Made by a program: the position numbers and the translations under genes. From a virus: a stretch of DNA of 21,726 nt. Positions 6,600 through 21,689 of the stretch are shown here, in pieces; position 1 is the first letter of the stretch, and every line of letters begins with the position of its first letter. Under the pieces are notes generated by a model. That model had not been told where the DNA came from and ran no database searches. It saw nothing but the letters and a program-made list of their open reading frames with translations. The stretch covers positions 1 through 21,726 of IMG/VR virus record IMGVR_UViG_3300036828_000465; one strand, given 5' to 3'.

Positions 6600-7394
6600 C
6601 TAATCGAACCATCCAGAGGCGTCGCTGGCACTGAGCTTGGCAGTGCTTGCGGATGCAGACCATGTGTCAGCAACCTTGGTCTCCATGCTGCCGTCGCTCT
6701 GGTGCGTGATGTCCTTATTCGCCTTATCGACGAGATTGTCGCCGTTTGAGGTAATGCCGTTCTGGTCCATGCGGATCGATGTCTTCGTCGCGCCGGAGCC
6801 GTCCATGACCTCAAAATGAATGTAATCGGCCCCCTGAGTTATGCGCGTGCGATCCTTCCTCGTCTGCTGCGCGTCCTGCTTGGTCCCTGCCTGCTGGCCC
6901 TGGCCCTGTGATTGGCTGCCGCTCTGCCCGCCGCTCTGTCCGCTCTGCCCGCTCTGCCCCTGTCCTTGCTGACCGTCCTGTTGCGGCATAACGATGCGAT
7001 GCGTGATCGTCATTGGCGTTTCGATCGATATGGTGCTGCGCTTGATGTGGATGCGCTGGCCCTGATCGTCGTATATCGCCATTTCGCCTTCTTGCAGGTT
7101 CTTAAGCCGATGCCGGCGATCATCTATTCCAAAGATCATCGGATGAGCGCGGTTGCCGCCGAGGAAGGCGACGATCACTTCCGCCGGATGCTTGTCTTTG
7201 TCATCCTTTTCCGGCAGCGGACGCGTTGTGATGCCGTACTGCTGAATTCGCTCGACGTTCTTTATCGTCTCGCCGGAAAACAAATTGATGTCAGCGTACT
7301 GCCAAAATTTATCGTCGGCCGTCTTTTTCAGCGTGCCGCGAGTTACCGCAAGATAGGCGCGATGCGCAGCATCGCGAACCGTCGATCGCCACAT
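6600..7394 (-). CDS. Baseplate spike protein, Mu gp45 / gpV family
   Basis: 264 residues from ATG 7394, with AGAGAGG 6 bases upstream, 13 bases after the gpP stop. The N-terminal half is an OB-fold spike base: FSGETIKNVERIQQYGITT, then EVIVAFLGGNRAHPMIFGID, then the family signature LQEGEMAIYDDQGQRIHIKR (residues 100-119). The C-terminal part has short beta-helix-like repeats (DGSGATKTSIRMDQNGITS). Between them, residues 138-170 are an almost pure Gln/Gly/Ser tract (for example GQQGQGQSGQSGQSGGQSGS) not found in Mu gp45. The spike forms the membrane-piercing tip on the hub. Order hub-spike matches Mu. The tract is probably a flexible or surface loop; this is inference. Confidence 0.9.
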   Translation of the reverse strand: MWRSTVRDAAHRAYLAVTRGTLKKTADDKFWQYADINLFSGETIKNVERIQQYGITTRPLPEKDDKDKHPAEVIVAFLGGNRAHPMIFGIDDRRHRLKNLQEGEMAIYDDQGQRIHIKRSTISIETPMTITHRIVMPQQDGQQGQGQSGQSGQSGGQSGSQSQGQGQQAGTKQDAQQTRKDRTRITQGADYIHFEVMDGSGATKTSIRMDQNGITSNGDNLVDKANKDITHQSDGSMETKVADTWSASASTAKLSASDASGWFD

Positions 7395-8597: not shown

Positions 8598-10358
8598 CTA
8601 TTTGCCCCAGCGATTGGAAAAGGTCTCGCCGCCCGGATTTGTCTCGCCCGTGGTGTCGGATACGCCCATTTGTTCGACCTGGTTCATCTCGGTTTGACGG
8701 AACATTGATGGAGGTACGCCAGGAACGCCGGCGTCTGCTCGCTTGATATCAATGTCGATCTTGCCGGTGCCGTTGACCGTGCTCATGCCCGTTTGCGGAC
8801 CGAGCGCGCGATCGAGACGCGCGCCGCCGGCATCGCCGCCACGTAGGTCCTGCAACGTTCCAGGCTTTCCCCATTGGGGCGCGGCCCAAGGATCAAGCTC
8901 CGGCGCGACCGGCGCGGGCGCGGCTTCAAAGCCGAGAAAGCGGCGACGTAGGTCGGCCGCCGGCGCTGGCGCCATCCCCGGCGACGGCGCGATCGGCGCG
9001 GGCACGATCGGCGCAATACTCGGCGACGGCGGCGGCAGCGCCGGCAGCGCTAGGCCAGGCTGCTCGGGGCCGGTTCGCAGGATCGATCGCGAAGGCGCCG
9101 CTGGCGCTGCGGCCGGCGGCGCGACACCTGGCGGAGGCGCGATCGGCGGCGCGGCACCTGGCGCGATCGGTAACGGCGGCGCAACCGCGGGCGCCCCCGG
9201 CGTGACCGGCGCCTGCCGCAAGATCGATGGCGGCCCAGCCGGGATAATGATCGGCGCCGACGCCGCCGGCGCCGGAATCATCTGCGGCGGCAGGGGCGCT
9301 ACCGGTACCGTCTGGCTCGGCGCTGCCGGTGCTGTCTGGCCCGGCGCTGCTGCTGGCGGCCCCCCGAAATCGGCCGGCACCTTGCCGGTTCGCAGATACT
9401 CATCGACTTGTTCTTGTGTCGGCAATTTGCGTCTCCCCTCTTTGCCGCCGCCGAACAAATCGGTCATCCACTCGAACCAGCCACGTGCACCTTCTTTCGC
9501 CTTGTCAAAAACAAGGTTGTTGATCTCGTCAGCGATATGAGTAAACGTGGACGTTAGCACCGGGCGAACGCCTTGAATTAGATATTTCGACAAATTGTCC
9601 CATGCCTGGCTAATGTCATCGACCGATTTCTTGTACGCCTTCGCGGCCTCGATATCGTCGTGGAAGATCGGCCCGGTTTCGTCGATCTTCTCCCGCAGCT
9701 TTGCAAATTGCGGAGCGAGCCCCAGGTCGCCGAGCAAAATCGCCTTCTGATCCGGCGGCAGACGTTCGATCCCGTCGATGACCTTCAGGATGAAGCCGTA
9801 GGTATCATCCGGATTGGCCTCGTGAAACTTCCGCGCGTCGATGTAAATTTGTTTTGTCGTCTCGCCGTGAGCAATCATCAGGTCGGCAAATTCTTTCGCC
9901 TCCTTCGCATCGCTTCCTAACGGCCCCTTATTAAAGCCGTTGGCAATTCGCGACATATTCCGCTCGAAGCTTTGCACCTCCGCATCGGAGATACCGGCCC
10001 GCTTGCCAGCTTCCTGCAGGCGCTCGACCTGGTCGACCGTCATCTTCGTCTGATCGGCGAGCAGTTTCATGTCGACCGTCGTCTTCGACACTTTGCTCGA
10101 CATTTCGGTCAGGCCGGCGAATATCGCACTCGCGCCAAGCCCGGCGATGCCCAAGGTCTTAAGCGCCGGGGTGAGCACCTGGCTAATTCCACGGCCAAGC
10201 GGAGCTGCAACCTTCTCCAGTTTGCTGAGACCTTCGTGGGTCTCTTTCATCCCCTTGCCGCCGCCGACCTGGTCAAGGGTCGTTTGCAGCTGCTTGAGCT
10301 GCGGGCTCATCTCGTCCCGCAGCTTGGCAATCATTTCCCAGGTGGGGGCTTCGGCCAT
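8598..10358 (-). CDS. Second tape-measure-like protein (paralogue of the upstream tape measure)
   Basis: 586 residues from ATG 10358, 5 bases after the stop of the first tape-measure gene. The first ~300 residues align with the upstream protein almost without offset: both start with a MIA[K/R]LRD[E/D][M/L]SPQL motif, both have MKLLADQT at 97-104 / 96-103, then VERL, SFER, NPxxTxGFI, LAPxxA(K/R)L, LxKYL and RPxxT. This region is mainly helical with a hydrophobic patch at 68-85. Residues ~333-470 are Ala/Pro-rich low-complexity linker, with PSILR repeated. The end (GTGKIDIDIKRADAGVP) matches the end of the first copy (GTGELNVSVNAPRG). It lacks the peptidase domain of the first copy. One may set tail length while the other is a tip or ejected protein; this cannot be decided here. 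Confidence 0.75.
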   Translation of the reverse strand: MAEAPTWEMIAKLRDEMSPQLKQLQTTLDQVGGGKGMKETHEGLSKLEKVAAPLGRGISQVLTPALKTLGIAGLGASAIFAGLTEMSSKVSKTTVDMKLLADQTKMTVDQVERLQEAGKRAGISDAEVQSFERNMSRIANGFNKGPLGSDAKEAKEFADLMIAHGETTKQIYIDARKFHEANPDDTYGFILKVIDGIERLPPDQKAILLGDLGLAPQFAKLREKIDETGPIFHDDIEAAKAYKKSVDDISQAWDNLSKYLIQGVRPVLTSTFTHIADEINNLVFDKAKEGARGWFEWMTDLFGGGKEGRRKLPTQEQVDEYLRTGKVPADFGGPPAAAPGQTAPAAPSQTVPVAPLPPQMIPAPAASAPIIIPAGPPSILRQAPVTPGAPAVAPPLPIAPGAAPPIAPPPGVAPPAAAPAAPSRSILRTGPEQPGLALPALPPPSPSIAPIVPAPIAPSPGMAPAPAADLRRRFLGFEAAPAPVAPELDPWAAPQWGKPGTLQDLRGGDAGGARLDRALGPQTGMSTVNGTGKIDIDIKRADAGVPGVPPSMFRQTEMNQVEQMGVSDTTGETNPGGETFSNRWGK

Positions 10359-10363
10359 CGTTG

Positions 10364-12832
10364 CTACCCGCCGTTGCCCTTCTTGGACTCCGGCTCGTCC
10401 TTCGTAATCGTGCGGTCAAGCTTTGTTTTTTCGAACATGCCGTCGGCCTCGACCTTGGCTTTGGTGCCGCGCGGCGCGTTCACGCTCACGTTCAGCTCGC
10501 CGGTGCCTTTCACATCGCTGTCGGTCGTCGCGTTGATCGATTTATCGAGGCGTTTACGATCTTGAATCCCGCCGGCCTTATACATCTCGAAAGCCTGCTG
10601 ATATTCATCGTCGGTTAGTTGTCGTCTGCGGCCCTCACCCTGGATGTGGCTGCGCATAAATGGAAGCATAAAATTGGGATCGCTGGCCATCTCTGGAGTG
10701 ATAATCTGCGCGGAGTTATAGCCAGGCACGGCGCCACGGCCGCCACCCGACCACTTTTCCGCCGCCGCCCCGACGGTCATACCGACGTACTTTTGCGACA
10801 GCAGGTCCATATTGGCTGCCAGCCCGTGGACGTCAGATGGAAAATTGGCGATCTTGTTAGCGCCGCCAATCACTCCGTACCCGGTCATGCCATAACGTAT
10901 GGCCCGTTCGGTCGGCCACTGAGCACCGGGATTGTGGTAGCGCTCGCTCGCGAAGCCAGTCGCCGGCAAATTCTCCAGATGATGCATTGCATCGGGATGG
11001 ATACCGGCCGCGTCATCGGCGCCTACCAGCCCCTGCGCCCCCGGCTGCACCGGACCGACCGCGTCCGGGTTCAGCGGCGCCGAGCCACGACGGAATTCAA
11101 ACTGTTTGATGTTGAAATCGTCTCTAATAAATTTACCTTGATTGCCGCCGATGCCGGTAAACTTCCCGGTATTCGGATCGACGTCGCCAACGATCGTAAC
11201 GTGACTCCCCGCCTCCCCGGTACGCGTATAGCCGCCAAAACGTGACGATTTCCGAATAGCGACATCACCTGGCGATGGAGTGTCGACCGGCGTTCCCCAA
11301 TTACGCCAGTTCGACGCGATCGGATAGCCCTTTGGCGGCTCGCCGCCGACCGAGCGCACGACAGCAGCGGCGAAATCGCCGCACCAGTTGCTATCCTTGT
11401 GCACTCCGTACTTCGCTAGAAACTTTTGCACTCCTTCCGCGCCGCTTTCCTGTGCGGCGCGTGCTGCCCCAACTGCTAAGTCGCTGGAAATAACTCCAGG
11501 TTGCGATGGCGTGCCTCCACGTTGCGATGGCGCGCCTCCCGATCGCGACGGCGCGCCGCTTGGAGCAAACACCGTTGTTGGTATTCCTCCAGGAGCAGGC
11601 ACTCCTGGGGTGCCTTCTAAGCTCTCCCTAGCTAATGGTGCAGCGCGCGTTACCGGCGCCGCCGCGCCTGGCCCCACCGGCGCGCTTGGTTGCCGTGCCG
11701 GGACGCTCGGCGGCGGTCGCCATGCCGGCCCACCGGGTTGTTGCCGCGCCGGGACGCCGCTCGGTTGCATCGGGGCCGCTGCGCCGCCACCGGGCGGTTG
11801 CCATGCCGGCGCACCGGGCTGCCCGGGAAAAGTCCCTTGCAAATACGGGACGGGCGCGCCACTCCAGGAAGGCCCGACTGTCGGTGCTGCTCCTCCCATC
11901 CAGCCCTTAAAGCGTGCCCACCAGGCGCCAATGGCGTCCATCCAATGCTTCATGTAGATTTCAACATACGCCTTCGGTCCGGAAATCCAGAACGTGTTTA
12001 TTTCCTCCGCAGTCAGCTTGTTCCACTCCGTCATTGTCGGGCGAAATGTTGCAGTCAAATATTTCTGCAAATTATCTAACGCCTGTTCCACGGCGTGTTG
12101 CGAATTGATGAATTCCTGCGCCGCCTTCGTGTCATCCTTGAAGAGCGGTCCGAGGCGCTCCAGTTCTTTGTTCAGGCGCGCATATTCTGGCGCCAGCTGC
12201 AATCGGCCAAGGAGATACGCCTTGCTGTCCGGCTGGAGCTGGTCGATGCCTTCGAGCAGCTGCTTGATGAAGCCGCCGGTGTTTCCCGGGTTTAGCGCCA
12301 GATATCTGTCAAGCTCCTGGGCAAGCGCGGCCGTCTTGTCGCCCATCTTTCCGAGCATCTCGACGAATTCATCCCATTGCCTGGCGTTGGCACCTCCGGG
12401 ACCGCCTCGGAACGCCGCCACGATCATCGCCATTCGCCGCTCGAATGACGCCATTTGATCCGCCGGAATGCCGACGTGCTCGCCGGCAACTTTCAACCGC
12501 TCCACATCCTCGAATGTTAGACGCGTCTGATCGGCGAGTAGCTTCATCTCAATGGTCGACTTCGATACTTTCTCCGCGTTGAAACCGAGCGCGGCGAGCC
12601 CGCCGCTTACCGAAAGCACCGTGATCCCGAATTCCTTGAGGGCGGGATCGAGCACCTCCTTCATTTCTTTGCCGAGTTCCCCGCTTTGCTCGCGCAGCTG
12701 TTTTATCCAGCTTGTACCGCTGCTGCCCCGCGCAGTCTCGCCGACCGCCTTGATCTGCCTGATCATGCCCTGAAGCTGCGGACTCAAATCGTCGCGCAGC
12801 CGCGCAATCATTTGCAGCGTGTCGTCGGGCAT
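10364..12832 (-). CDS. Tape-measure protein with embedded NlpC/P60-like peptidase domain
   Basis: 822 residues from ATG 12832, four bases after the stop of the frameshifted chaperone product, the standard place for a tape measure. Residues 1-310 are helical, with a hydrophobic stretch at 69-84. Residues ~315-445 are a Pro/Gly/Ala/Ser linker with a 7-residue repeat. Residues ~450-580 look like an NlpC/P60-type cysteine peptidase: Cys484 in SNWCGDFAAAVVRSVGG, GDVAIRK (522-528), His544 in GSHVTIVGDV, and GIGGNQ (560-565). Residues ~630-700 (HNPGAQWP, then FPSDVHGLAANMDLLSQKY and GMTVGAAAEKW) resemble a second peptidoglycan-active or wall-binding unit found in phage tail proteins. The C-terminus (GTGELNVSVNAPRG) is shared with the next gene. 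It is likely to set tail length and cut peptidoglycan during entry. Confidence 0.85.
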   Translation of the reverse strand: MPDDTLQMIARLRDDLSPQLQGMIRQIKAVGETARGSSGTSWIKQLREQSGELGKEMKEVLDPALKEFGITVLSVSGGLAALGFNAEKVSKSTIEMKLLADQTRLTFEDVERLKVAGEHVGIPADQMASFERRMAMIVAAFRGGPGGANARQWDEFVEMLGKMGDKTAALAQELDRYLALNPGNTGGFIKQLLEGIDQLQPDSKAYLLGRLQLAPEYARLNKELERLGPLFKDDTKAAQEFINSQHAVEQALDNLQKYLTATFRPTMTEWNKLTAEEINTFWISGPKAYVEIYMKHWMDAIGAWWARFKGWMGGAAPTVGPSWSGAPVPYLQGTFPGQPGAPAWQPPGGGAAAPMQPSGVPARQQPGGPAWRPPPSVPARQPSAPVGPGAAAPVTRAAPLARESLEGTPGVPAPGGIPTTVFAPSGAPSRSGGAPSQRGGTPSQPGVISSDLAVGAARAAQESGAEGVQKFLAKYGVHKDSNWCGDFAAAVVRSVGGEPPKGYPIASNWRNWGTPVDTPSPGDVAIRKSSRFGGYTRTGEAGSHVTIVGDVDPNTGKFTGIGGNQGKFIRDDFNIKQFEFRRGSAPLNPDAVGPVQPGAQGLVGADDAAGIHPDAMHHLENLPATGFASERYHNPGAQWPTERAIRYGMTGYGVIGGANKIANFPSDVHGLAANMDLLSQKYVGMTVGAAAEKWSGGGRGAVPGYNSAQIITPEMASDPNFMLPFMRSHIQGEGRRRQLTDDEYQQAFEMYKAGGIQDRKRLDKSINATTDSDVKGTGELNVSVNAPRGTKAKVEADGMFEKTKLDRTITKDEPESKKGNGG
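11495..11557 (-). repeat. Three 21-bp repeats encoding a 7-residue unit in the tape-measure linker
   Basis: Residues 426-446 of the first tape-measure protein read GAPSRSG, GAPSQRG and GTPSQPG. The DNA repeats with a 21-base period (gttgcgatggcgtgcctcca, then a near copy, then a more diverged one on the plus strand). Such repeats can expand or shrink by slippage, and would alter linker length only. Confidence 0.65.
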
Positions 12833-12836
12833 CTCA

Positions 12837-13004
12837 TCACTCGGGGGGCGTCACATCGGCGAGCAGCCGCTCGGTCATCATCAGGTGACGCGTGATTGCT
12901 GACAGAGGCTCGTTTAGAAACTCATTTGGATGCCGGCCGTAGAACTTCGCTAACTTGTAGCAGGAGAGGATCAGTCCTGCTGTCCCAAGGCCGGCACGAA
13001 AAAA
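12837..13004 (-). CDS. -1 frameshift extension of the tail assembly chaperone (GT-type product)
   Basis: The chaperone gene contains T TTT TTC at 13004-12998, in phase as a classic -1 slippery heptamer (zero-frame codons 105 TTT and 106 TTC). Slipping back one base opens a frame that continues for 53 codons to TGA at 12839-12837, four bases before the tape-measure ATG. The extension is clearly protein-like (GLGTAGLILSCYKLAKFY, then GRHPNEFLNEPLSAITRHLM, ending LLADVTPPE) and fills the only gap between chaperone and tape measure. It has no sensible start of its own. The fused product would have 159 residues. Phages lambda, Mu and others make such G / GT pairs. Confidence 0.85.
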   Translation of the reverse strand, partial: FFRAGLGTAGLILSCYKLAKFYGRHPNEFLNEPLSAITRHLMMTERLLADVTPPE

Positions 13005-13315
13005 CGGCCGGACAAAGCAAAGCTGATCGTCTGCCAGTCCTTGGCCTTGAGCTGCTTGATGGTCGACGGCGGCACCGACGCAAGATTGCTCATCTGCGCT
13101 TCCATCGTCGCTTCGTTTAACGAGAGATCGAGACGGATTGGGCTGCCATAGCGCACGATGTCGCTGCCGGTCGGCTCGCGAAAGACCAGCTCCTTGACCT
13201 TATCGCCGTGCGAGTCAATCTCGTAAGCAAGCTTGTGCCGATATTCGGCGCCATTGGTTTTCGGCTCCGGCGATACTTCCGTGGCGCCGCGCGGGCGCTC
13301 AGTTACGTCATCCAT
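12971..13315 (-). CDS. Tail assembly chaperone, Mu gp41 family (short, G-like product)
   Basis: 114 residues from ATG 13315, with AAAGAAAGG about 8 bases upstream. The core is the Mu gp41-type segment: HKLAYEIDSHGDKVKELVFR, EPTGSDIVRYGSP, then LASVPPSTIKQLKAKDWQTI and SFALSGRFF. Family members coat the tape measure during tail assembly and are absent from the finished virion. The gene stands directly upstream of the tape measure, its normal place. The zero frame stops at 12971, nine codons past the slippery heptamer, so most ribosomes should make this short form and a minority the 159-residue form. Confidence 0.88.
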   Translation of the reverse strand: MDDVTERPRGATEVSPEPKTNGAEYRHKLAYEIDSHGDKVKELVFREPTGSDIVRYGSPIRLDLSLNEATMEAQMSNLASVPPSTIKQLKAKDWQTISFALSGRFFVPALGQQD

Positions 13316-13331
13316 GGGTCAGCCCTTTCTT

Positions 13332-13919
13332 TCATCGGCGCCTCCTATGATGGGGCCGGTGCACGCGCACCGGAGGCGCAATCTTTGGAGCAAGCGTCTT
13401 CGGTCGTGGAGCAGGTAACGGAATGTCTGGCGCCCCCGCCTTGCGCGTTGGCGGGCTAGTCCATGTAACCGGCTCAGTTGTTGTCGATGCAGCTGGCGCG
13501 GATTCCGGGGCATGCAGCGTAGGGTCTAATCTTGGATCGCTCCACTCATCCGGCTCCGGCGGTCGCGACTTAGGTAATCGAACCTCTGACGACGGAATTC
13601 GCGCTTCTTGCGGAGATGGCGATCCATGCGCTCTTTGCATTTGATGATAGAGGTCAATCTTTTCTTGCGTTGTAGCGCCTTTGGGCCACATCCAACCCTG
13701 ACCCTGCGGGTCCAAATCGTAGGTGGGGCTTAGAACCTCAGACGGGAATCGTTTCGCGATTTGCGCCGACGGAGCATCATCCGACACCGGCCCTTTCGGC
13801 TTATTCGCCGGCGGCCCCGGAGCCATGGCATGCAGCGCTTCTCGCGCGTACTTCGCTCCGACGTTGATCGTTACTTGCACGCGCGCGCTCGCGCGCGCGA
13901 TGATCGAATCGTTGCCCAT
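13332..13919 (-). CDS. Proline-rich protein of unknown function
   Basis: 195 residues from ATG 13919, two bases after the tail-tube stop; the ribosome site is weak. I do not recognise a family. The first ~35 residues (SIIARASARVQVTINVGAKY) may form a short ordered segment; a region around 85-100 (GATTQEKIDLYHQMQRAHG) looks helical. The remainder is rich in Pro, Ala, Ser and Thr and ends in a basic tail (HRPHHRRRR), so it is probably disordered. No signal peptide or membrane segment is visible. It lies between tube and chaperone, where Mu has no gene, so a minor virion or assembly role is possible. An alternating GC palindrome lies in its first codons. Confidence 0.65.
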   Translation of the reverse strand: MGNDSIIARASARVQVTINVGAKYAREALHAMAPGPPANKPKGPVSDDAPSAQIAKRFPSEVLSPTYDLDPQGQGWMWPKGATTQEKIDLYHQMQRAHGSPSPQEARIPSSEVRLPKSRPPEPDEWSDPRLDPTLHAPESAPAASTTTEPVTWTSPPTRKAGAPDIPLPAPRPKTLAPKIAPPVRVHRPHHRRRR

Positions 13920-13921
13920 TT

Positions 13922-14281
13922 TTAGAGTTCCGTCATGCTCGTGCCTTCGAATCGCACGCGCGCCATGCCTTCACGGGTGTTGATGTCCGCCGGCCGGATA
14001 TAAGCGGCTTCCTTGAGCACATAGGTGCGCCCATTGAGCAGCTCGGCGGTCACCGTCACGTTGACCATCTGCTCGAGCGTATCAAACAGCACGCTCGGCA
14101 ACGTCGAAAGATCGCCCTCGATGAACGGCACGCGCGGCACTTCGGTAAAGCCGTGCACGTAATCCTGCCCGGCGATCATCGTGCGCTCGACCGCGCCTGG
14201 CGACACGGTGAAGTTGCCGCGTAGCGGGTATTGATTGCCATCGACTTTGAGAAAGGCGGTGCCGCCGATCTTAATGGCCAT
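13922..14281 (-). CDS. Tail tube protein, Mu gpM family
   Basis: 119 residues from ATG 14281 with a good AGGAG 6 bases upstream. It reads as a Mu gpM / Tail_tube family protein throughout: the start MAIKIGGTAFLKVDGNQYPL, then the loop GNFTVSPGAVERTMIAGQDY, HGFTEVPRVPFIEGDLS, and the closing strands GRTYVLKEAAYIRPADINTR and MARVRFEGTSM. Length is normal (Mu gpM 118). It forms the inner tube through which DNA passes. In Mu it lies directly after the sheath gene; here about 4.2 kb of cargo separates the two. It overlaps the end of the glycosyltransferase-like gene by 11 bases. Confidence 0.95.
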   Translation of the reverse strand: MAIKIGGTAFLKVDGNQYPLRGNFTVSPGAVERTMIAGQDYVHGFTEVPRVPFIEGDLSTLPSVLFDTLEQMVNVTVTAELLNGRTYVLKEAAYIRPADINTREGMARVRFEGTSMTEL

Positions 14282-15065
14282 TGGAGTCTCCTGCTGTTTC
14301 TACTTGCGACGCGATCTGCCGCATCAGCCGCCAAGCGGTGCCGCTTGCCATTTCCGGCAGTGTGAATTGCTGATTCATCAGCGACGCCCACCACGCCTCG
14401 CGATCGGGCATCACCGGGTTTTCGATATCGAGATCAGTGCGACCGACTGGCGCCGCTGGCGACTCCGCCGCGACGAACACCGGAATGCCGGCGATCACTG
14501 CATCGACCGCAACATTCGACGAATGCGTGACCAGCGCCCAGGCGCCAGCGAGATCGGGAGCGAGCGGCTTCGTGAACGTCTTCGGCCGCACGACGATCGG
14601 CCGATCGGTCAAGATGCGCAGCCGACCCTCGATATGTGCGAGCCAGCTCCGGACGTTGATGCCCATCGCGCGGCCGAAGCTCGCGCCGGGCAAAGCTAAC
14701 AGAACGTGGCGGCCATCACGGCGCCACGGCTGCATCTTGACGCGAAGATCGGGACGCGGCGCCGGATCGCGCAACAGGATCGGCGACATGCCGCGATAGG
14801 TGCAGCGATAGTAACCGTGCGCAGTGCCACGCGCCGGCAGATAGAAGCCGTTATCGATATGCCAGAACGGCCGTCCCTCACGTGCCGCGCGAGGGATGAT
14901 CCGCAGCGCGAGCCATTCCTGTCCCCATACCGCGAACGGCGCCGGGCCCGCCGGCGGCTCGCCCACAATGACGCGGGAATGACCAATGCCACGCGCGAGC
15001 GCGCGCATGATCCGGCCGGTCTTGACCGTTCGCTCCGGCGTGACGCAAAGCCAGATAGTTTTCAG
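14271..15065 (-). CDS. Probable glycosyltransferase (capsule/LPS-type), possible CTG start
   Basis: The first ATG is at 15008 (245 residues), but the same frame upstream is clearly coding: LKTIWLCVTPERTVKTGRI leads directly into MRALARGIGH. Between the preceding TGA and the ATG there is no ATG, GTG or TTG; a CTG at 15065 follows GGAGAG with about 8 bases spacing and would give 264 residues starting MKTIW. Inner features (numbered from 15008) are WHIDNGFY (49-56), YYRCTY (66-71), and THSSNVAVDAVIAGIPVFVA (161-180), the last resembling the donor-binding end of capsule/CDP-glycerol-type transferases. No clear DxD motif. It overlaps the tube gene by 11 bases. The family is not certain. Confidence 0.65.
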   Translation of the reverse strand: MKTIWLCVTPERTVKTGRIMRALARGIGHSRVIVGEPPAGPAPFAVWGQEWLALRIIPRAAREGRPFWHIDNGFYLPARGTAHGYYRCTYRGMSPILLRDPAPRPDLRVKMQPWRRDGRHVLLALPGASFGRAMGINVRSWLAHIEGRLRILTDRPIVVRPKTFTKPLAPDLAGAWALVTHSSNVAVDAVIAGIPVFVAAESPAAPVGRTDLDIENPVMPDREAWWASLMNQQFTLPEMASGTAWRLMRQIASQVETAGDSNGH

Positions 15066-15132
15066 GCGTCGCTCTCCAGCGAATGAAGGTTGCCGCGTGG
15101 GCGAGCATCGCGATCAGGAGAAAGCGGAGCAT
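14878..15132 (-). CDS. Possible short ORF overlapping the glycosyltransferase start
   Basis: An ATG at 15132 overlaps the FkbM-type gene's stop as TGATG and has AAAGGA 5 bases upstream, the best ribosome site in this part. The frame begins MLRFLLIAMLAHAATFIRWR, a hydrophobic signal-like start, but after about 25 codons it runs antagonistically in a different frame over the glycosyltransferase and becomes Arg/Gly/His-rich, typical of shadow translation. It may be a short leader that couples translation to the CTG start of the next gene, or a relic of a gene start after a frame change. An 84-residue functional protein seems unlikely. Confidence 0.25.
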   Translation of the reverse strand: MLRFLLIAMLAHAATFIRWRATPENYLALRHAGANGQDRPDHARARAWHWSFPRHCGRAAGGPGAVRGMGTGMARAADHPSRGT

Positions 15133-15821
15133 CACGATCCTTTCCAGCGGAGGCAGTAATCCCCGCTCCATTCGAATTCGAGATTAGCGCCCCAGCTTTG
15201 CAGGAGCTTCACGGCGCCGAGCTGATCGAGGCCGTAGCGCTGCGGCGTGCCAGGCTTCTGCTCGACGATAATGGTCGGCTTCCATCGCTGGATCGTCTCC
15301 TCGCCACCGAGGATCACGTGTAGCTCGTAACCCTCGCAATCGATCTTGAGAAAATCGACGTGTGTGAGCCGATAGTCATCAAGCCGATTGACCTTGGCGA
15401 AACCGTTCCACCCAGGCGCGTCCTTCGGCACGACATGGGTAATTCCGGAATTGGTCGATTTGTAACGGAAGTAGATATCGCCGTGCTCGTTGCCGAGCGC
15501 GCAATCGTGCAGAGTGACCCGGGCGCCATCCTCCCGGCGGATGTTCTGCGCAAAACATTCCCGGCACTGCGGCATCGGCTCGTACGCCGTCACCTTGGTG
15601 AACATCCGCGAGAAGACCCGCGACCAGAGCCCGACATGCGCGCCAACGTCGACCGCATGGCGGAAGTTCTTGATATACGGGAATGCCTTCGCGAATTTTC
15701 GAAACTGATAGGTCGGAAGCCCATCGAATTCCGGCGCCGCTTTCGCCTCGACCTCAGCGGCGATCACCCGCGGAAGATTGACATCGCCGTCGGGAAACCA
15801 AAGACCGCGAAAATTCTGCAT
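15132..15821 (-). CDS. FkbM-family methyltransferase
   Basis: 229 residues from ATG 15821. It carries SAM-binding features of FkbM-type methyltransferases: AVDVGAHVGLWS (residues 56-67, motif I), the acidic AYEPMP (79-84), NNSGI-like TNSGITHVVP (123-132), and the diagnostic VDFLKIDCEGYELHVILGGE (155-174). Such enzymes usually O-methylate sugars or small molecules. It stands between two glycosyltransferases, so a sugar attached to host surface polysaccharide or to the virion is the likely substrate; that is inference. It is preceded by a 33-residue ORF that ends 5 bases upstream, and its stop overlaps a following ATG (TGATG). Confidence 0.92.
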   Translation of the reverse strand: MQNFRGLWFPDGDVNLPRVIAAEVEAKAAPEFDGLPTYQFRKFAKAFPYIKNFRHAVDVGAHVGLWSRVFSRMFTKVTAYEPMPQCRECFAQNIRREDGARVTLHDCALGNEHGDIYFRYKSTNSGITHVVPKDAPGWNGFAKVNRLDDYRLTHVDFLKIDCEGYELHVILGGEETIQRWKPTIIVEQKPGTPQRYGLDQLGAVKLLQSWGANLEFEWSGDYCLRWKGS

Positions 15822-15826
15822 CTAAA

Positions 15827-15928
15827 CTACAGGTCCGTCTCCCTCACGTCGATCAATTCACGCATTCCTTTAGCGAACGCGGCACAATGCGCTTTGAACC
15901 GTCGCATAAGCATAGCGATCATTCTCAT
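15827..15928 (-). CDS. Small 33-residue basic peptide (hypothetical)
   Basis: The roughly 118 bases between the GT9 and FkbM genes hold one ORF that fills most of the gap. It starts at ATG 15928 with AGGGA about 7 bases upstream and ends five bases before the FkbM ATG. The peptide begins MRMIAMLMRRFKAHCAAFAK and ends in an acidic segment (RELIDVRETDL); it is amphipathic and Met-rich. No family is recognised. The good ribosome site and tight fit favour translation; it could also act only to couple the neighbours. Confidence 0.45.
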   Translation of the reverse strand: MRMIAMLMRRFKAHCAAFAKGMRELIDVRETDL

Positions 15929-15938
15929 TTTGGCTTCC

Positions 15939-16751
15939 CTACATTAGTCGCCGCTGCTTGCGCGTTGCGTCATCGCGCTGCAATTCGCAGACCGCCGCTT
16001 CGAGCACCCGATCGACAGTTATCGCGGCCATCGCGTCCCGGCAGTGCTTGCACGACACGACCGTTCCACAGGGCGGCCCGGGCGCGACGATGTTGCTGTG
16101 CCACGGGTAGCCTGTCGCCTTTGGGCTGTTGAAGCCGCCAAAGATCACAACAGCCGGGATGCCGAGCGCGGCCGCGGCGTGATGCAAACCGCCCTCCGGC
16201 CCAATGTAGAGACGCGCCAGCGACATGACCGTGAGCGCGCCGCGGAACGTCGGCGTGATTACGCGCGTAAGGTGCTCGCCATATTGGTTGCTGGTGGGCC
16301 CGACCGAGATCGGGAATTCGCCCTCGGCCGCCAGCGCGTCGGCAACCGCCAGATAGCGATCGACCGGCCATTGCTTGTTCGCACCGATGCATGCCCCGAC
16401 CGGCTTGACCGCCGGCTCGATGATTATCGGGCGCGGCACCGCCCAGCTCGCGATCGATGCGTGCTCCTGCGCATCGAAATAGATTTCGCCGGGCGGGCAG
16501 CGGAAGTCACGGAACCGCCAGTGGCCCTGATGCAACTCGCCATAGAGCCGGTGACCGCGAAAGTGTTTGATCCATTCGATATCGCGATCGCCTTCGCTGC
16601 CCGGCGGCGCGACGTTGGGATTTCCGCGAAAGATTTCATGGCTCTGCCGGGTCCAGACGATCCGCCGGCCATTGCCAAAGGCAATGCGCTTGCCACGGAT
16701 CGCGGCGCCACGCGCGAGCCCCGACGCAATAACTTCGTCACCATAACCCAT
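15939..16751 (-). CDS. Glycosyltransferase family 9 (heptosyltransferase-like)
   Basis: 270 residues from ATG 16751, preferred over an in-frame TTG at 16778; GGAGG lies 11 bases before the ATG. It starts MGYGDEVIASGLARG, the usual GT9 opening in which the enzyme binds the acceptor. The nucleotide-sugar end is clear: ALTVMSLARLYIGPEGGLHH (172-191), AAAALGIPAVVIFGGFNSP (192-210). Cysteines at 228, 234 and 237 (CGTVVSCKHC) are common near the GT9 C-terminus. GT9 enzymes add heptose or related sugars to LPS core. It is shorter than the ~340 of bacterial WaaF/WaaC. It overlaps the 37-residue membrane peptide gene by 14 bases. Confidence 0.88.
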   Translation of the reverse strand: MGYGDEVIASGLARGAAIRGKRIAFGNGRRIVWTRQSHEIFRGNPNVAPPGSEGDRDIEWIKHFRGHRLYGELHQGHWRFRDFRCPPGEIYFDAQEHASIASWAVPRPIIIEPAVKPVGACIGANKQWPVDRYLAVADALAAEGEFPISVGPTSNQYGEHLTRVITPTFRGALTVMSLARLYIGPEGGLHHAAAALGIPAVVIFGGFNSPKATGYPWHSNIVAPGPPCGTVVSCKHCRDAMAAITVDRVLEAAVCELQRDDATRKQRRLM

Positions 16752-16851
16752 AGAGGCGCCCGCCTCCGAAAATGGCAACCCCGAGCATGGCGATCGAGAT
16801 TATTAGAAGCACGGCCGCGAGCGCCAGGTCTTTGCCGTTCAGCTCGCCCAT
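16738..16851 (-). CDS. 37-residue single-pass membrane peptide
   Basis: This ORF was found between the GT8 and GT9 genes: ATG 16851 to TGA 16738. It overlaps the GT8 end by 13 bases and the GT9 start by 14 bases, which fits coupled translation; GAGAGG lies about 10 bases before the ATG. The peptide is MGELNGKDLALAAVLLIISI followed by AMLGVAIFGGGRLYGLW. Residues ~9-29 form one uninterrupted hydrophobic helix with a short polar N-terminus. Function unknown; a membrane anchor or partner for the neighbouring transferases, or a holin-like peptide, are possible. Confidence 0.55.
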   Translation of the reverse strand: MGELNGKDLALAAVLLIISIAMLGVAIFGGGRLYGLW

Positions 16852-17552
16852 GCGTCGCGCGCCTCTCGCCATTCTCTTGCATAGGGCACGTTCTCGTAGC
16901 CCGCAAACCACGGGCCGCCTTCGGTGAAATGCACGATCTTCGGCTCGATCGCCTTATCGGAATGACCGACAAGGTAGTTCCAAGCCGGGTCGATCGCGCC
17001 GATCAGATCATCGTCAAGCCAGCAGAACCGGTGCAGATCGCGGCCCGGCAAGGAATTGACGAGCGCTGGCGTTAGAAGCGCGTTGGCCGGATGTTCGCAA
17101 TTGAACAGCATCAGCGATGACCAGTTTTTTCTCGGGTACGTCGTCTGCGCCTGGCCGTCCATCTTGATCGTCGCCGCCGGCGCATAGTCGTGTTTGACAC
17201 ACATGACCGCGTACCGTTCATCGGCCGCCGCGAATAGCTCGGCCAGATCGCCAAGCGCGAGCATGTCGGCGTCCAAAAAAAGCGCCCATCCGGTTCTCGC
17301 CAGAATGGGCACCATAAACCGCGCTATTGAGAATTCGGTCGCCATCGGTGCGCCCGAGATCACGTCCCAAAGCTGGCCGTCATGCCGCGCGTGCTCGCGC
17401 CAATAGAGCCCTTGCGCGCGCAACCGCGAGAGCACGAGACCGCGCACGCGAATCGGCTGAGACAGGTGACGCTTGATCGAAGCGCGCGCAACCGCGAATG
17501 CCATCGCCTCTCGCGGGTCGAAGCCCAAATAGATGCTGCGCGGTTGACTCAT
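16839..17552 (-). CDS. Glycosyltransferase, GT8-like (GT-A fold)
   Basis: 237 residues from ATG 17552 with GGGGATAGGG just before it; a TTG at 17576 is in frame but would add only 8 residues. Features: SIYLGFDPREAMAFAVARAS (residues 6-25) as the nucleotide-sugar strand, TEFSIARFMVPIL (72-84), the metal-binding DAD at 94-96 in ALFLDADMLALGDL, WSSLMLFNCEH (144-154), and IVHFTEGGPWF (206-216) whose His is the expected second metal ligand. The pattern is that of GT8-type retaining transferases that use UDP-sugars. It starts the compact run of transferase genes after a 76-base spacer. The donor and acceptor cannot be read from the sequence. Confidence 0.88.
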   Translation of the reverse strand: MSQPRSIYLGFDPREAMAFAVARASIKRHLSQPIRVRGLVLSRLRAQGLYWREHARHDGQLWDVISGAPMATEFSIARFMVPILARTGWALFLDADMLALGDLAELFAAADERYAVMCVKHDYAPAATIKMDGQAQTTYPRKNWSSLMLFNCEHPANALLTPALVNSLPGRDLHRFCWLDDDLIGAIDPAWNYLVGHSDKAIEPKIVHFTEGGPWFAGYENVPYAREWREARDAWAS

Positions 17553-17628
17553 CCCTATCCCCGCTATCTCATGCAACGTCGGCGCGGGCTGTGGAGACCA
17601 TGATAACCATGATGAGACTACGTGTCTC

Positions 17629-18330
17629 TCACATCGCGCCGACGCCGGCCAATGCCGCGTCGATCTGCATCCGCGGAAAGGCCGTGATGCGACTTTCCGG
17701 CGCCGCGTTGATGACCGTCACGCCGGCGAGATCGAGGCGCCGGCGGACCTTGCTGAAGTTCTTCGCCCACTGCACCCAGCGGTCCGTCGGCTGCTCGCGC
17801 CTGTTCATATAGGCACGAGTATCGGCGGAGCCGGCGTCGCCGTTGTAATCATAACCCAGGAGCACAATCCGCTTGGCACGCTTGAGCCACGCGAGATTGA
17901 GCGCGCCAAAGCCCGACGTGCCGCCGGAGCAGATCACGGTCAACTCATCGGACAGGTCCGACAGATCAACGCGCCGAAGAAAGCGGACGCAAGGCGCGTG
18001 CGGAGGCGGCCCGAGCTGCTTGATCTTCGGCACAGCCCAATAGACCGGCATGGTGCGCACCGCATTGAGCATGTCCCGCCATTCCAAATAACGGGGGATG
18101 TCGAGCCCGAAGCCAGCATCGGCCCAGGGAATGTTGAACATTGCGGCCTTGACAGCGAGCACGTGCATCCCGCGCAAGCGCTCGTAATCAAAGCCGCGAA
18201 GCGAAGGGCCGTTGCCGACGATCGCCACCGGCCGATCGTCCCACCAGGGCGGATCAACGGCGGCGAAGTCTGACGTTTGACTCCTTAGTAGCCCACCTTC
18301 GGATTCTTGGTAGCCCGCTGGGTACCCCAC
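17629..18330 (-). CDS. DUF115 / MptE-like protein of phage glycan cassettes
   Basis: The open frame reaches up into the tRNA, so the start must be internal. GTG 18330 is preceded by AAGGAG four bases away and is the only good candidate; the product has 233 residues. Core motifs are RPVAIVGNGPSL (33-44), a Rossmann-like loop, then GLDIPRYLEW (75-84), and the signature ICSGGTSGFGALNLAWLKRA (133-152) followed by KRIVLLGYDYNG (153-164). This matches DUF115/6-hydroxymethylpterin pyrophosphokinase MptE-like proteins, seen in flagellin-glycosylation loci and in many phages near sugar enzymes. Its exact reaction is unknown. It is the first protein gene after the tRNA. Confidence 0.75.
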   Translation of the reverse strand: MGYPAGYQESEGGLLRSQTSDFAAVDPPWWDDRPVAIVGNGPSLRGFDYERLRGMHVLAVKAAMFNIPWADAGFGLDIPRYLEWRDMLNAVRTMPVYWAVPKIKQLGPPPHAPCVRFLRRVDLSDLSDELTVICSGGTSGFGALNLAWLKRAKRIVLLGYDYNGDAGSADTRAYMNRREQPTDRWVQWAKNFSKVRRRLDLAGVTVINAAPESRITAFPRMQIDAALAGVGAM

Positions 18331-18379
18331 TGTTCTCCTTTTCGGTTGCCAAGGTGTTCTACTTTTGGTCCGAGCGGAT

Positions 18380-18457
18380 TGGTTGCGGGGGCCGGATTTG
18401 AACCGAGCGACCTCGGGCTTATGAAACCCGCGAGCTGCCAAACTGCTCTACCCCGCA
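18380..18457 (-). tRNA. tRNA with CAT anticodon (elongator Met or Ile2), CCA encoded
   Basis: Read on the minus strand: acceptor TGCGGGG / CCCCGCA (7 perfect pairs), D-arm GAGC-AGTTTGGCA-GCTC, anticodon stem CGGGT/GCCCG with loop TTCATAA, 6-base variable region, T-arm CTCGG-TTCAAAT-CCGGC, discriminator A, then an encoded CCA. The first T-stem pair is C-C, a mismatch. A paired 1-72 position and the absence of three G-C pairs at 29-31 speak against initiator tRNA, so it is elongator Met or, if the C is modified, Ile(ATA). It lies 8 bases after the T-run of the sheath terminator. Confidence 0.92.
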
Positions 18458-18464
18458 ATGTCAG

Positions 18465-18487
18465 AAAAGCGGCCTAAATTAGGCCGC
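18465..18487 (-). terminator. Rho-independent terminator overlapping the end of the sheath gene
   Basis: On the minus strand GCGGCCTA-ATT-TAGGCCGC is an 8-bp perfect hairpin with a 3-base loop, followed by TTTTC. The sheath stop codon TAA lies within the stem and loop. It would end or attenuate the transcript of the sheath and upstream genes before the tRNA and transferase cassette. Confidence 0.8.
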
Positions 18488-20008
18488 AACAGTTACGTCA
18501 ATTCCTCTATCATATTGAAGACGGAATTGAGCTAGAACGGCAAAAATTCGCAGTTGGTTGATCAGATCGGGCGGGTATAACACGTTAAGGCGGTTGGGGT
18601 CATTAGGGTCGCGCTCCACGATTAGATTCGCTTTGAATGCGTTCACGTTTTCTACGAGACCATTGAATTCATCGATTAGATATTGCGCGACCAGCTCCGC
18701 CCTGATGATCGTCGGCGTGACGATCTTCTGTCCGACTCCGAACCGCGTCCCGTCATCGGCCAGCTTGGAGCGCGGATATTTCGACGTGATCGCGTGCCGC
18801 TGATTGCGAATGAGACGCGAAAGCGTGGCGAGCGTCGTCACCAGCTCGTAAGCGTCATCGCCTTGGCCATAGAGGTTCAGCTGATAACCAGTCGTTTCGC
18901 GCTGGATCATCGGCCAGCCGTTGGGACCGTATTTCTGCGTCGCGAGGCCGTTGTGCGCCAGCGTGTTCAATTCGCTTACCACGTAGCGCTGGTGTAGCGG
19001 CGCGGCGAGAATGCCGGTCAGCTCTAATGTTTGAAGAGGCCGCGCTGGATCGTTTTGCAGCGCGCGGCCAGCCATGGCGGTATAAGCGGCAGTCCACTCC
19101 CAGGTCGGCGACGGCGCCGTCAGCTCGACGGCCATCCAACTAAATATCGCCGCGTTTTGCGTATTGCCCCAAGCGATCGTGGTGGCGAAGTCGCCGCGAT
19201 AGGCGGAATAGATTGTGCCGTACATCTGGCGCATCCAGCCCCAGCGACCTGAGTCGGTGAAACCATATTCCAGGTCCCACAACAGGATCGAAGTACCATC
19301 GTTGTACGGCAGCGCCACGTACTCGTAGCCATAATCCGCGATATTGGCGATCGCGGCGGTGAAATCCGGGACGCCGGCGCCACCGCCCAATTTGTTGCCC
19401 GCCGGATAAGTGATCGTGAGGCCAGGTGGCAGCACTTCGCCGGCGAGCGATCCTCTGTAGCTATCGCGAATGTCGATATCATTGCCGTTCTGCCCACCCC
19501 ATCTGCAGGTCAGTGCAAGCGAGTTGGTAGTCAAGACGCTCGTCACCGGCAGGTCAACGTCGCCGTTGATGGCATCATTGAGCTTGCTCGCCACTATGGC
19601 GGTCGTATCGCTCGCGGTGACTACGACCGAGACGAGCTGGCCGCCGATGTAGAAACTGAGCGTACCGGCATCCGTCGGCGGCGTCGCGATTGTCACTGTT
19701 CCGTGCGCCTTCACCGCGCCAAGCGCATCGGGCACGGGGAGCCCGAACATCTGCTGCGCGAAATTATTTAGCATGAAGATTCGAAACATATCGGCGAGCA
19801 TCGAGCCCTCGCCGAATGCAGCCTTCGCCTGGGCCAGCGTTCCGATAGCTAATGGAATGTTCGGCAGTGCCTTACCGGTCGGAAGCATCTGGCCGACGAG
19901 CAGGCACGCCTCCGGATAGGTCGGCAGGCCCGCCATCGACGGATCGATCTCGACCCAATACAGCGGTTGTTTCCAGTCGGCGGGAAACTGAGCAAATTCG
20001 ATCGGCAT
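18479..20008 (-). CDS. Tail sheath protein, Mu gpL family
   Basis: 509 residues from ATG 20008 with a strong AAGGAG 7 bases upstream. Length is close to Mu gpL (495). Typical features: VEIDPSMAGLPTYPEACLLV near the start, the region FGEGSMLADMFRIFMLNN, a domain with GTVTIATPPTDAGTLSFYIG, then YGYEYVALPYNDGTSILLWD and the C-terminal contractile core RGDFATTIAWGNTQNAAI, LELTGILAAP, GVGQKIVTPTIIRAELVAQY and LRIFAVLAQFRLQYDRG. The sheath contracts around the tube to drive injection. Its stop is inside a terminator hairpin. The tube gene that normally follows is about 4.2 kb away. Confidence 0.95.
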   Translation of the reverse strand: MPIEFAQFPADWKQPLYWVEIDPSMAGLPTYPEACLLVGQMLPTGKALPNIPLAIGTLAQAKAAFGEGSMLADMFRIFMLNNFAQQMFGLPVPDALGAVKAHGTVTIATPPTDAGTLSFYIGGQLVSVVVTASDTTAIVASKLNDAINGDVDLPVTSVLTTNSLALTCRWGGQNGNDIDIRDSYRGSLAGEVLPPGLTITYPAGNKLGGGAGVPDFTAAIANIADYGYEYVALPYNDGTSILLWDLEYGFTDSGRWGWMRQMYGTIYSAYRGDFATTIAWGNTQNAAIFSWMAVELTAPSPTWEWTAAYTAMAGRALQNDPARPLQTLELTGILAAPLHQRYVVSELNTLAHNGLATQKYGPNGWPMIQRETTGYQLNLYGQGDDAYELVTTLATLSRLIRNQRHAITSKYPRSKLADDGTRFGVGQKIVTPTIIRAELVAQYLIDEFNGLVENVNAFKANLIVERDPNDPNRLNVLYPPDLINQLRIFAVLAQFRLQYDRGIDVTVAA

Positions 20009-20783
20009 CGACTTTCTCCTTGCGCGGCCAATGGATCGCGACCGCAGCCGTGATGGTCAGGAGACCAGCAATCGCTTGCGCGATCGCCGCCTCCTGCGTT
20101 TCCAGAAAATCGAGCCAGCCTTCGATATCTGTGGCGGGGATTAACTCGAGCTTCTGCAATTGCCCGACGCTTTCGCCGACGTAATGCAGGCCCAAGAGAA
20201 ACAGCATTCCAGAGATCACGATCAGAATCGGCCGGACCATGATCATGGTGCGCGCCGAGTAGCGCAGCGCCACATACATCCCGATCAGGCAGACCAGAGC
20301 GGTCTGAACGCCAAGCAGAAGCGACGCGAGATCGAAGTCGATCGTGGGATTGAGCACGAGCAGAAAGATCGTCGCTTCCATGCCCTCGCGATAAACGATC
20401 ACGAACGCGGCGAGGATCGGCAGCCACGGCCGCGAGGCCGAGTATGCCGTGATCCGCCGCGTCCATGCCGGGGGTTCGATCGCTGGCGCTTCGGCGAGAA
20501 ACGCCGAAGCCGCGAGCAGGAATATCCAGGCCATTACCAGCATGAACAATTCGAGCCAGTCGGTGAAGAACCGGCTGGCGAATTGCGCGGCATGGCCGAC
20601 GATGACAGCGCTGATCGGCAGTCCGATGAAGACCGCGAGCCCGGCGCCGAGATAGAGGCAGACCCTATTCCGTGACGTTGCCTGGATCAGAAACAGCTCC
20701 AGGCCCAGGAGCGCCAGCACCGCTTCCGTCCCCTCCCGCATCACTACCAGAAACGCTTCGAATGTAATCTGCGGGAGGTGCAT
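19872..20783 (-). CDS. FTR1-family iron permease (phage-borne)
   Basis: 303 residues from ATG 20783, with only a weak ribosome site. Two REGxE motifs, the iron-ligand signature of the FTR1/EfeU family, are present in hydrophobic helices: VVMREGTEAVLALLG (residues 13-27) and IVYREGMEATIFLLV (129-143). Seven hydrophobic segments can be drawn at about 8-33, 40-62, 74-97, 118-144, 152-174, 181-204 and 233-251, the family's usual number. Family members move iron across the cytoplasmic membrane, often with an oxidase or EfeO/EfeB partner; none is in this window. The last 45 residues overlap the sheath gene out of frame and the first codons overlap the DUF2635 gene. It lies in the tail operon, so it should be expressed late in infection. 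Substrate is inferred from family. Confidence 0.9.
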   Translation of the reverse strand: MHLPQITFEAFLVVMREGTEAVLALLGLELFLIQATSRNRVCLYLGAGLAVFIGLPISAVIVGHAAQFASRFFTDWLELFMLVMAWIFLLAASAFLAEAPAIEPPAWTRRITAYSASRPWLPILAAFVIVYREGMEATIFLLVLNPTIDFDLASLLLGVQTALVCLIGMYVALRYSARTMIMVRPILIVISGMLFLLGLHYVGESVGQLQKLELIPATDIEGWLDFLETQEAAIAQAIAGLLTITAAVAIHWPRKEKVDADRICSVSRRLETTAVLGRDRSVDGGPADLSGGVPARRPDASDR

Positions 20784-21000
20784 TGAGGATCGATCCGTCC
20801 ATTAGGCGCCGGTTGGTGAATTGATCGGCTGGCCACGGCGTCGCCGCCGGAAAGCGGTCGAAGCGACGCTTGTCTGATGGGTGATAAAGGAATTTGCGGA
20901 CGCTCTCGTCGCGCGGCCACACGCCGATTTCCGGCCGCCGCTTATTACGAGCGGCTGCGAAAGGGCTGCCTTGGAGCCTCGCCATATCTGACGGTTTCAT
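20665..21000 (-). CDS. Small DUF2635-like protein (Mu gp38 position)
   Basis: 111 residues from ATG 21000, which overlaps the previous stop as ATGA and has AAAGGA 7 bases upstream. Residues ~23-72 fit a DUF2635/gp38-like pattern: PEIGVWPRDESVRKFLYHPS and TPWPADQFTNRRLMDGSI, ending in the typical RR-x-x-DGS. In Mu the equivalent gene lies just before the sheath gene. Residues ~80-111 are Gly/Ser/Ala/Pro-rich, overlap the iron permease gene by 119 bases, and look like a run-on tail rather than part of the fold. Its function in tails is not well known. Confidence 0.65.
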   Translation of the reverse strand: MKPSDMARLQGSPFAAARNKRRPEIGVWPRDESVRKFLYHPSDKRRFDRFPAATPWPADQFTNRRLMDGSILNAPPADYIRSVSGSDAGGDGSGAGAPGPGAVSDPGNVTE

Positions 21001-21689
21001 CGCTTTTCCTTTGCACCGAAGAAACTCTTGACCGTCTTGACCATCTGCGCCCACGGACCTTCCGGCTTGGCGTTGGTAAGCTCGCCGGTTTCCGGATCGA
21101 TGTCCCACGCCGCGGTGACTTGTTGAACCGCGTCCATCGTGTCGGGTTCCGGGAACGCGGTTTCGAGATGCAGACGCAGGAAGTCGTCGGGCACATACGG
21201 CGGCCAGACCGTTTCCCAGCACATGACCAGTTGCATTTGATATTCGGCCACGGCGAGTTCGCCGACGCGCGAGAACACGAGCTTGGTATCGGAGGACTCG
21301 AAGCCGGAGGTCAGACGGACGAACGCCGGATCGGTATAGAGCGCCAGCCGCGTCGCCATGAGCTTAGTGGCGAGCATGGCGAGCTGGTCATCGACGTTGC
21401 TCGCCAGGATCATCCCGGAAATGCCGAGAGTTGCCCGCTGATAGAAGCGCGGGTCCAGAATGTTGTAATCGCCGATCGGCTGCTCGGCGTCGCGCAGCAG
21501 ATAGACCGAGAGACACGGCAGGTCCTGCGGCTGGATCGTAAGCGCCGGCGTGCGCCGATAGGTAGCGAAGCCTTTGACGGACGCGACGATCTTCTCATAG
21601 GCCGCAGACCAGACCATCTCGGCCGTTAGATTGGCCTCGGCAATTTCGAGATTGGTAGCGGTGTCGAGATCAAGCGGCGCGTCGTTCAT
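20997..21689 (-). CDS. Probable tail terminator / tail completion protein (Mu gp37 position)
   Basis: 230 residues from ATG 21689, which overlaps the stop of the upstream gene (ATGA). It shows the compact alpha/beta pattern of tail terminators: an N-terminal helix (MVWSAAYEKIVASVKGF), RRTPALTIQPQDLPCLSVYL, strand-rich IPxx-like middle FYQRATLGISGMILAS, ATKLMATRLALYTDPAF, and a strand GELAVAEYQMQLVMCWETVW. The final 40 residues are charged. The position before gp38-like and sheath genes fits Mu gp37, which caps the tail for head joining. The family match is approximate, by layout and position more than by strict motifs. Confidence 0.6.
   Translation of the reverse strand: MNDAPLDLDTATNLEIAEANLTAEMVWSAAYEKIVASVKGFATYRRTPALTIQPQDLPCLSVYLLRDAEQPIGDYNILDPRFYQRATLGISGMILASNVDDQLAMLATKLMATRLALYTDPAFVRLTSGFESSDTKLVFSRVGELAVAEYQMQLVMCWETVWPPYVPDDFLRLHLETAFPEPDTMDAVQQVTAAWDIDPETGELTNAKPEGPWAQMVKTVKSFFGAKEKR

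Follow-up and report, generated by a model that had tools for sequence, protein, structure and literature searches.

A divergent FTR1-type permease gene in the tail operon of a Mu-like phage

Why should a gene resembling those for iron permeases lie among the structural genes of a contractile-tailed phage, and what might its product do? The question is raised by an open reading frame of 303 codons at positions 20783–19872. The window, meaning the whole stretch of DNA analysed, is a linear IMG/VR record of 21,726 bases, from a soil-type bacterial virus, in which the recognisable genes all lie on the minus strand, as do all window features given below. An initial annotation had placed an FTR1-type protein in a Mu-like tail operon, downstream of a gp38-like gene and upstream of the sheath gene, and both the neighbours and the gene order bear this out. 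The order runs from a gp37-like gene (20997–21689; a weak match to phrog_6774, with a homologue in 61 related loci) through the gp38-like gene, the FTR1-type gene, the sheath, a block of cargo genes, the tail tube, the tail chaperone and two tape-measure-like genes to a P/gp44-like hub, a gp45-like spike, a DNA-circularisation-like hub, gp46, gp47/J and gp48. No EfeO, EfeB, P19 or cupredoxin gene was found beside the FTR1-type gene, its neighbours being the gp37-like, gp38-like and sheath genes.

The predicted protein carries the REG.E pattern twice, as REGTE (residues 16–20) and REGME (residues 132–136), both within membrane helices, and hydropathy gives seven membrane segments at approximately residues 8–36, 45–63, 79–97, 120–147, 155–173, 181–199 and 232–250, in agreement with the initial annotation. 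Its best profile matches are to FTR1: TIGR00145 (EfeU/Ftr1) matched with E=3.7e-7 and 30 bits (curated cut-off 303.8), NF041756 (EfeU) with E=3e-4, and Pfam FTR1 (PF03239) with E=9e-4 and 19 bits (curated cut-off 25.3). Because the curated cut-offs are missed, the protein is best called divergent FTR1-type, and not EfeU. Bacterial FTR1 proteins align with residues 8–250 at 30–34% identity (best E of about 1e-19), those of the Bradyrhizobium family giving E values of 1e-19 to 1e-14 over the same residues at about 30% identity at best. These whole-protein matches, far above chance, remove doubt about the family. At least 90% of 69 bacterial homologues share the charged residues R16, E17, E20, E78, R132, E133 and E136, each of which the window protein retains, and no part of the protein is better preserved than the metal-ligand motifs; a further glutamate conserved to that degree, E211 between the last two helices, is replaced by lysine. 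An AlphaFold model built from two sequences (pLDDT 47.6) was too poor to be informative, and a search by sequence found no relative of solved structure. The find is real and unusual, and the family assignment holds at the divergent FTR1-type level.

The full reading frame overstates the length of the gene. Its last 46 residues (258–303; 19872–20012) are not FTR1-like and derive from a different-frame reading of the sheath ribosome site and of the initial 137 nt of that gene, and the stretch encoding them aligns to the sheath starts of relatives (Bradyrhizobium prophages). Its codon-use score is −1.59, as against −0.98 for the FTR1 core and −0.75 for the same stretch in the sheath frame. The alignment and this un-phage-like codon use indicate that the genuine FTR1 portion comprises residues 1–257 only (20783–20013). 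The sheath gene's ribosome-binding site, AAGGAG (20016–20021), lies inside the final FTR1-like codons (..WPRKEK). At the other border, the gp38/DUF2635-like gene (20665–21000), assigned because its core resembles the small gene that relatives have at this position, and not by a profile match, begins with an ATG at 21000 that overlaps the gp37 stop. Its conserved core ends in ..RRLMDGSIL at about 20785, some 2 bases ahead of the FTR1 ATG, and past that point its frame continues out of frame for 119 nt into the FTR1 gene. The FTR1 coding part exactly fills the gap from the end of the gp38 core to the sheath AAGGAG. It has no stop of its own and a weak ribosome site, and the codon use and GC3 (0.78) of its core are like those of the phage genes. 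RNA folding at the two borders shows nothing remarkable, no sigma70-type promoter was found for the gene, and terminator-like sites are no commoner than in shuffles. The protein, described initially as looking functional, may be so: the motifs and membrane segments stand, but the native C-terminus and stop are missing. This loss matters because the entire EfeU is reported to be necessary for uptake in E. coli (PMC3577903). All seven helices are retained despite it.

The gene is absent from close relatives. The sheath (18479–20008; phrog_165) anchored a set of 136 related loci, made up of 80 IMG/VR contigs (54–61% sheath identity) and, within genome contigs, 56 prophages, the closest of which is in Bradyrhizobium (60%). 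Neither tblastn nor a profile search covering every reading frame found an FTR1 in any of the 136. In the 61 relatives with a complete gp37-to-sheath interval, that interval spans 43–1290 nt; it is either empty or occupied by a gp38-like gene, small extra ORFs occur in some cases, and an FTR1 is never present. An extra host-type gene missing from sister phages at the same place is what is expected of phage cargo, and the predicted permease gene has that character. One sub-clade (L075, L076, L059, L060 and L065) apparently has no gp38/DUF2635-like gene, its gp37-like gene ending 15–21 nt before the sheath. The Mu-like phages IPK, BgVeeders33, ST64B, phiNP, PY223 and MuM16-2 gave no tblastn match to FTR1, and the five of these that are annotated have no such gene at this place.

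Wider searches agree with the early remark that no well-studied phage carries FTR1. Across 50,697 phage records, tblastn matched only unannotated Listeria and Staphylococcus contigs and yielded no credible FTR1 in annotated phages; OR846728 and OR849886, labelled "Listeria phage" and "Staphylococcus phage", are such contigs and match EfeU-type proteins. The one Listeria contig inspected (L088) was rejected as a phage FTR1, being host chromosome with a host iron-uptake operon. Scans of IMG/VR and GTDB contigs with the window protein alone found no relative, and FTR1-profile scans of IMG/VR recovered only one other FTR1; these IMG/VR and GTDB scans depend on exact short peptide patterns and may omit near-identical records, so rarity is a statement of lower sensitivity. 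A plasmid search gave no match, and no relative of the window gene at more than 40% identity was found. No report of a phage FTR1 was found in the papers searched; giant viruses carrying iron transporters are known (PMC9270025).

The other FTR1 came from an IMG/VR scan with a bacterial FTR1 alignment, which returned one contig, IMGVR_UViG_3300049927_000124 (hereafter L232). This is a related phage, with 66% identity to the window in the sheath C-terminus and 59% in the tail tube. Whereas the window gene lies between gp38 and sheath, a position where none of the 136 related loci has an FTR1, the L232 gene lies between sheath and tail tube; both adjoin the sheath gene. The L232 protein (198 amino acids) scores 44 bits, above the Pfam FTR1 cut-off, and ends after the sixth membrane segment, about one helix early, so that the seventh is missing. 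Both REGxE motifs are kept in the window protein, and this distant phage relative has REGLE and, deviating from the pattern, REAFE. The two phage proteins share 27% identity over 191 residues, and L232 reaches 39% with host FTR1s. In trees they fall apart on very long branches, with a common origin not rejected (p-AU 0.225). The two genes are likely to represent independent captures, and the predicted FTR1 in a sister phage lifts the window find above a one-off.

The interval between sheath and tube, where the L232 gene lies, is a cargo site, or insertion hot spot, in these phages. In the window it holds sialyltransferase-like, GT8-like and GT9-like genes, an FkbM methyltransferase gene and one more gene (14271–18366), followed by the tail tube gene (13922–14281). 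Sugar-modifying genes occupy it in L028, L047 and L093 as well; L014 and L068 carry genes of GIY-YIG type by sequence resemblance, L232 has one by a Pfam match under the cut-off, and L102 has an alpha/beta hydrolase. A Bradyrhizobium jicamae prophage (L091) has a metal-efflux set there (11577–18688 of its own contig, minus strand), comprising an RND pump, a membrane-fusion protein, an outer-membrane factor and a cation-efflux protein that carries a heavy-metal domain. The view that Mu-like tail operons have no membrane transporter does not hold, since related operons carry the L232 FTR1 and this efflux set. Metal-transport genes have been reported in soil lysogenic phages (PMC8240259). Given that precedent and the metal-efflux genes at the cargo site, an FTR1 fits a known kind of phage cargo, and viruses such as these probably pick up metal-transport genes as cargo. 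Like phage moron or auxiliary genes in general, those for metal transport included, the window FTR1 is a host-type gene in a phage operon that is absent from sisters; unlike usual cargo, it lies inside the structural operon, overlaps both neighbours and has no visible promoter of its own. What is new here is the FTR1 gene family as phage cargo and its exact position.

Candidate donors are found in the Hyphomicrobiales. Of 297 genomes in the Bradyrhizobium family, 56 contain an FTR1 match, identity reaches 33–34% among genomes of the order, and matches are fewer across the class and phylum; none of about 1,300 sampled genomes holds a bacterial FTR1 above about 34% identity to the window protein. 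The nearest host proteins include stand-alone genes of about 270 amino acids with no EfeO or EfeB adjacent, and the two nearest-type genes whose neighbourhoods were read (L229 and L231) lie outside an EfeUOB operon, so a lone permease gene is unsurprising. Stand-alone Hyphomicrobiales FTR1s (for example L195, L196 and L182) share with the window protein full-length alignment, the two REGxE motifs and seven membrane segments, at 27–34% identity; the window gene differs in lying within a phage tail operon and in encoding, instead of the native C-terminus, sheath-gene sequence read out of frame. Members of the oxidase-dependent Fe transporter family (EfeU of EfeUOB, yeast Ftr1p, Campylobacter cFtr1) likewise share family homology (TIGR00145), motif and topology with the window protein, which scores far under the curated values; no gene for a periplasmic partner (EfeO, EfeB or P19) or an oxidase was seen in the window. 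FTR1-like proteins for metals other than iron exist, and the substrate of the window permease is not fixed by its sequence. In E. coli, the family member EfeU, which has this topology, has been described as an iron permease of the inner membrane (PMC9174327). Many of the phage's relatives reside as prophages in Bradyrhizobium or other Hyphomicrobiales, and the phage is therefore taken to be temperate.

With moderate confidence, we favour the reading that a temperate, Mu-like phage with a contractile tail carries, as cargo in its tail operon, a gene of Hyphomicrobiales-type host origin for a divergent FTR1/EfeU-type metal permease, through which the host cell probably takes up iron or a similar metal. 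It is favoured because of the FTR1 match and motifs, the phage-like codon use, the exact fit at both borders, the absence from relatives and the second case in L232. The gene would have been captured from such a host into the tail operon and translated from the late tail transcript or in the lysogen; late expression is plausible from its position. The protein would insert in the inner membrane, with the REGxE glutamates acting as metal ligands, as in EfeU and Ftr1p, and the odd C-terminal tail tolerated as a cytoplasmic extension, and the metal imported could help the infected or lysogenic cell. Counting against this are the identity of at most about 34% to any FTR1 and the very long branch, the Pfam score under its cut-off, the missing C-terminus and stop and the lack of a detectable sigma70-type promoter, and, in L232, the shortened protein and altered second motif. 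A bolder proposal, that Mu-like phages of Hyphomicrobiales have captured FTR1s beside the sheath more than once, as working, late-made importers that raise iron uptake during virion production or lysogeny, is offered only tentatively. Links between phage and host through iron have so far been discussed mostly in terms of tail-bound iron and receptor use, and an inner-membrane iron permease encoded by a phage, if that is what this gene specifies, would give a direct handle on whether phages steer host iron supply. Two FTR1 genes flanking the sheath in related phages turn a curiosity into a testable comparison.

The main rival, rather doubtful in our judgement, is that illegitimate recombination placed an FTR1 segment here as a functionless passenger, tolerated since neither the core of gp38 nor the ribosome site of the sheath gene was damaged. 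The missing stop and weak ribosome site would be expected of such a segment, as would borders made of long out-of-frame overlaps (119 and 137 nt), the absence of the gene from all close relatives, and the loss of the last helix and the REAFE motif in L232. However, 257 codons have stayed intact with both metal-ligand motifs retained at about 70% divergence, and, for all the rarity of FTR1 elsewhere in viral contigs, the two cases lie on either side of one and the same gene.

There is a small chance that the protein now serves the phage in another way, as a membrane factor (in superinfection exclusion or envelope change, for example) or as a transporter of another metal, iron import not being the point. 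A changed role would agree with the strong divergence of both phage FTR1s, their long branches in the trees and their altered C-termini, and with the sheath-side cargo of relatives, mostly envelope-sugar genes; the preservation of the metal-ligand motifs above all else in the window protein speaks against it. An assembly chimera that misplaced a bacterial gene in a phage contig is less probable again. The contig is metagenomic and the sole one with an FTR1 at this place, but a chimera would need two joins, the first falling precisely where the gp38 core ends and the second precisely on the ribosome site of the sheath gene, and would have to account for phage-like codon use, an independent contig with an FTR1 in the same type of operon and the lack of any close bacterial source among the sampled genomes; nothing indicates a join. 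That the permease supplies iron to the virion, at spike or fibre tips, a possibility raised in the initial annotation and favoured only by the position in the tail operon, is hardly credible, because the gp45-like spike (6600–7394) has no HxH motif, the six-histidine iron site of the P2 and phi92 spikes (PMC6116203, PMC11448403), and the 28 of 48 complete related spikes that have HxH in their last 60 residues cope without an FTR1.

Two minor features of the operon may be recorded. The tape-measure-like genes stand in tandem (10364–12832 and 8598–10358), the first with a weak CHAP peptidase domain. A tRNA-Met (CAT) gene (18380–18457; 54 bits against Rfam tRNA), absent from ten related loci and from L232, follows closely on a terminator-like stem (18487–18469) and lies between the sheath gene and the glycosyltransferase cargo.
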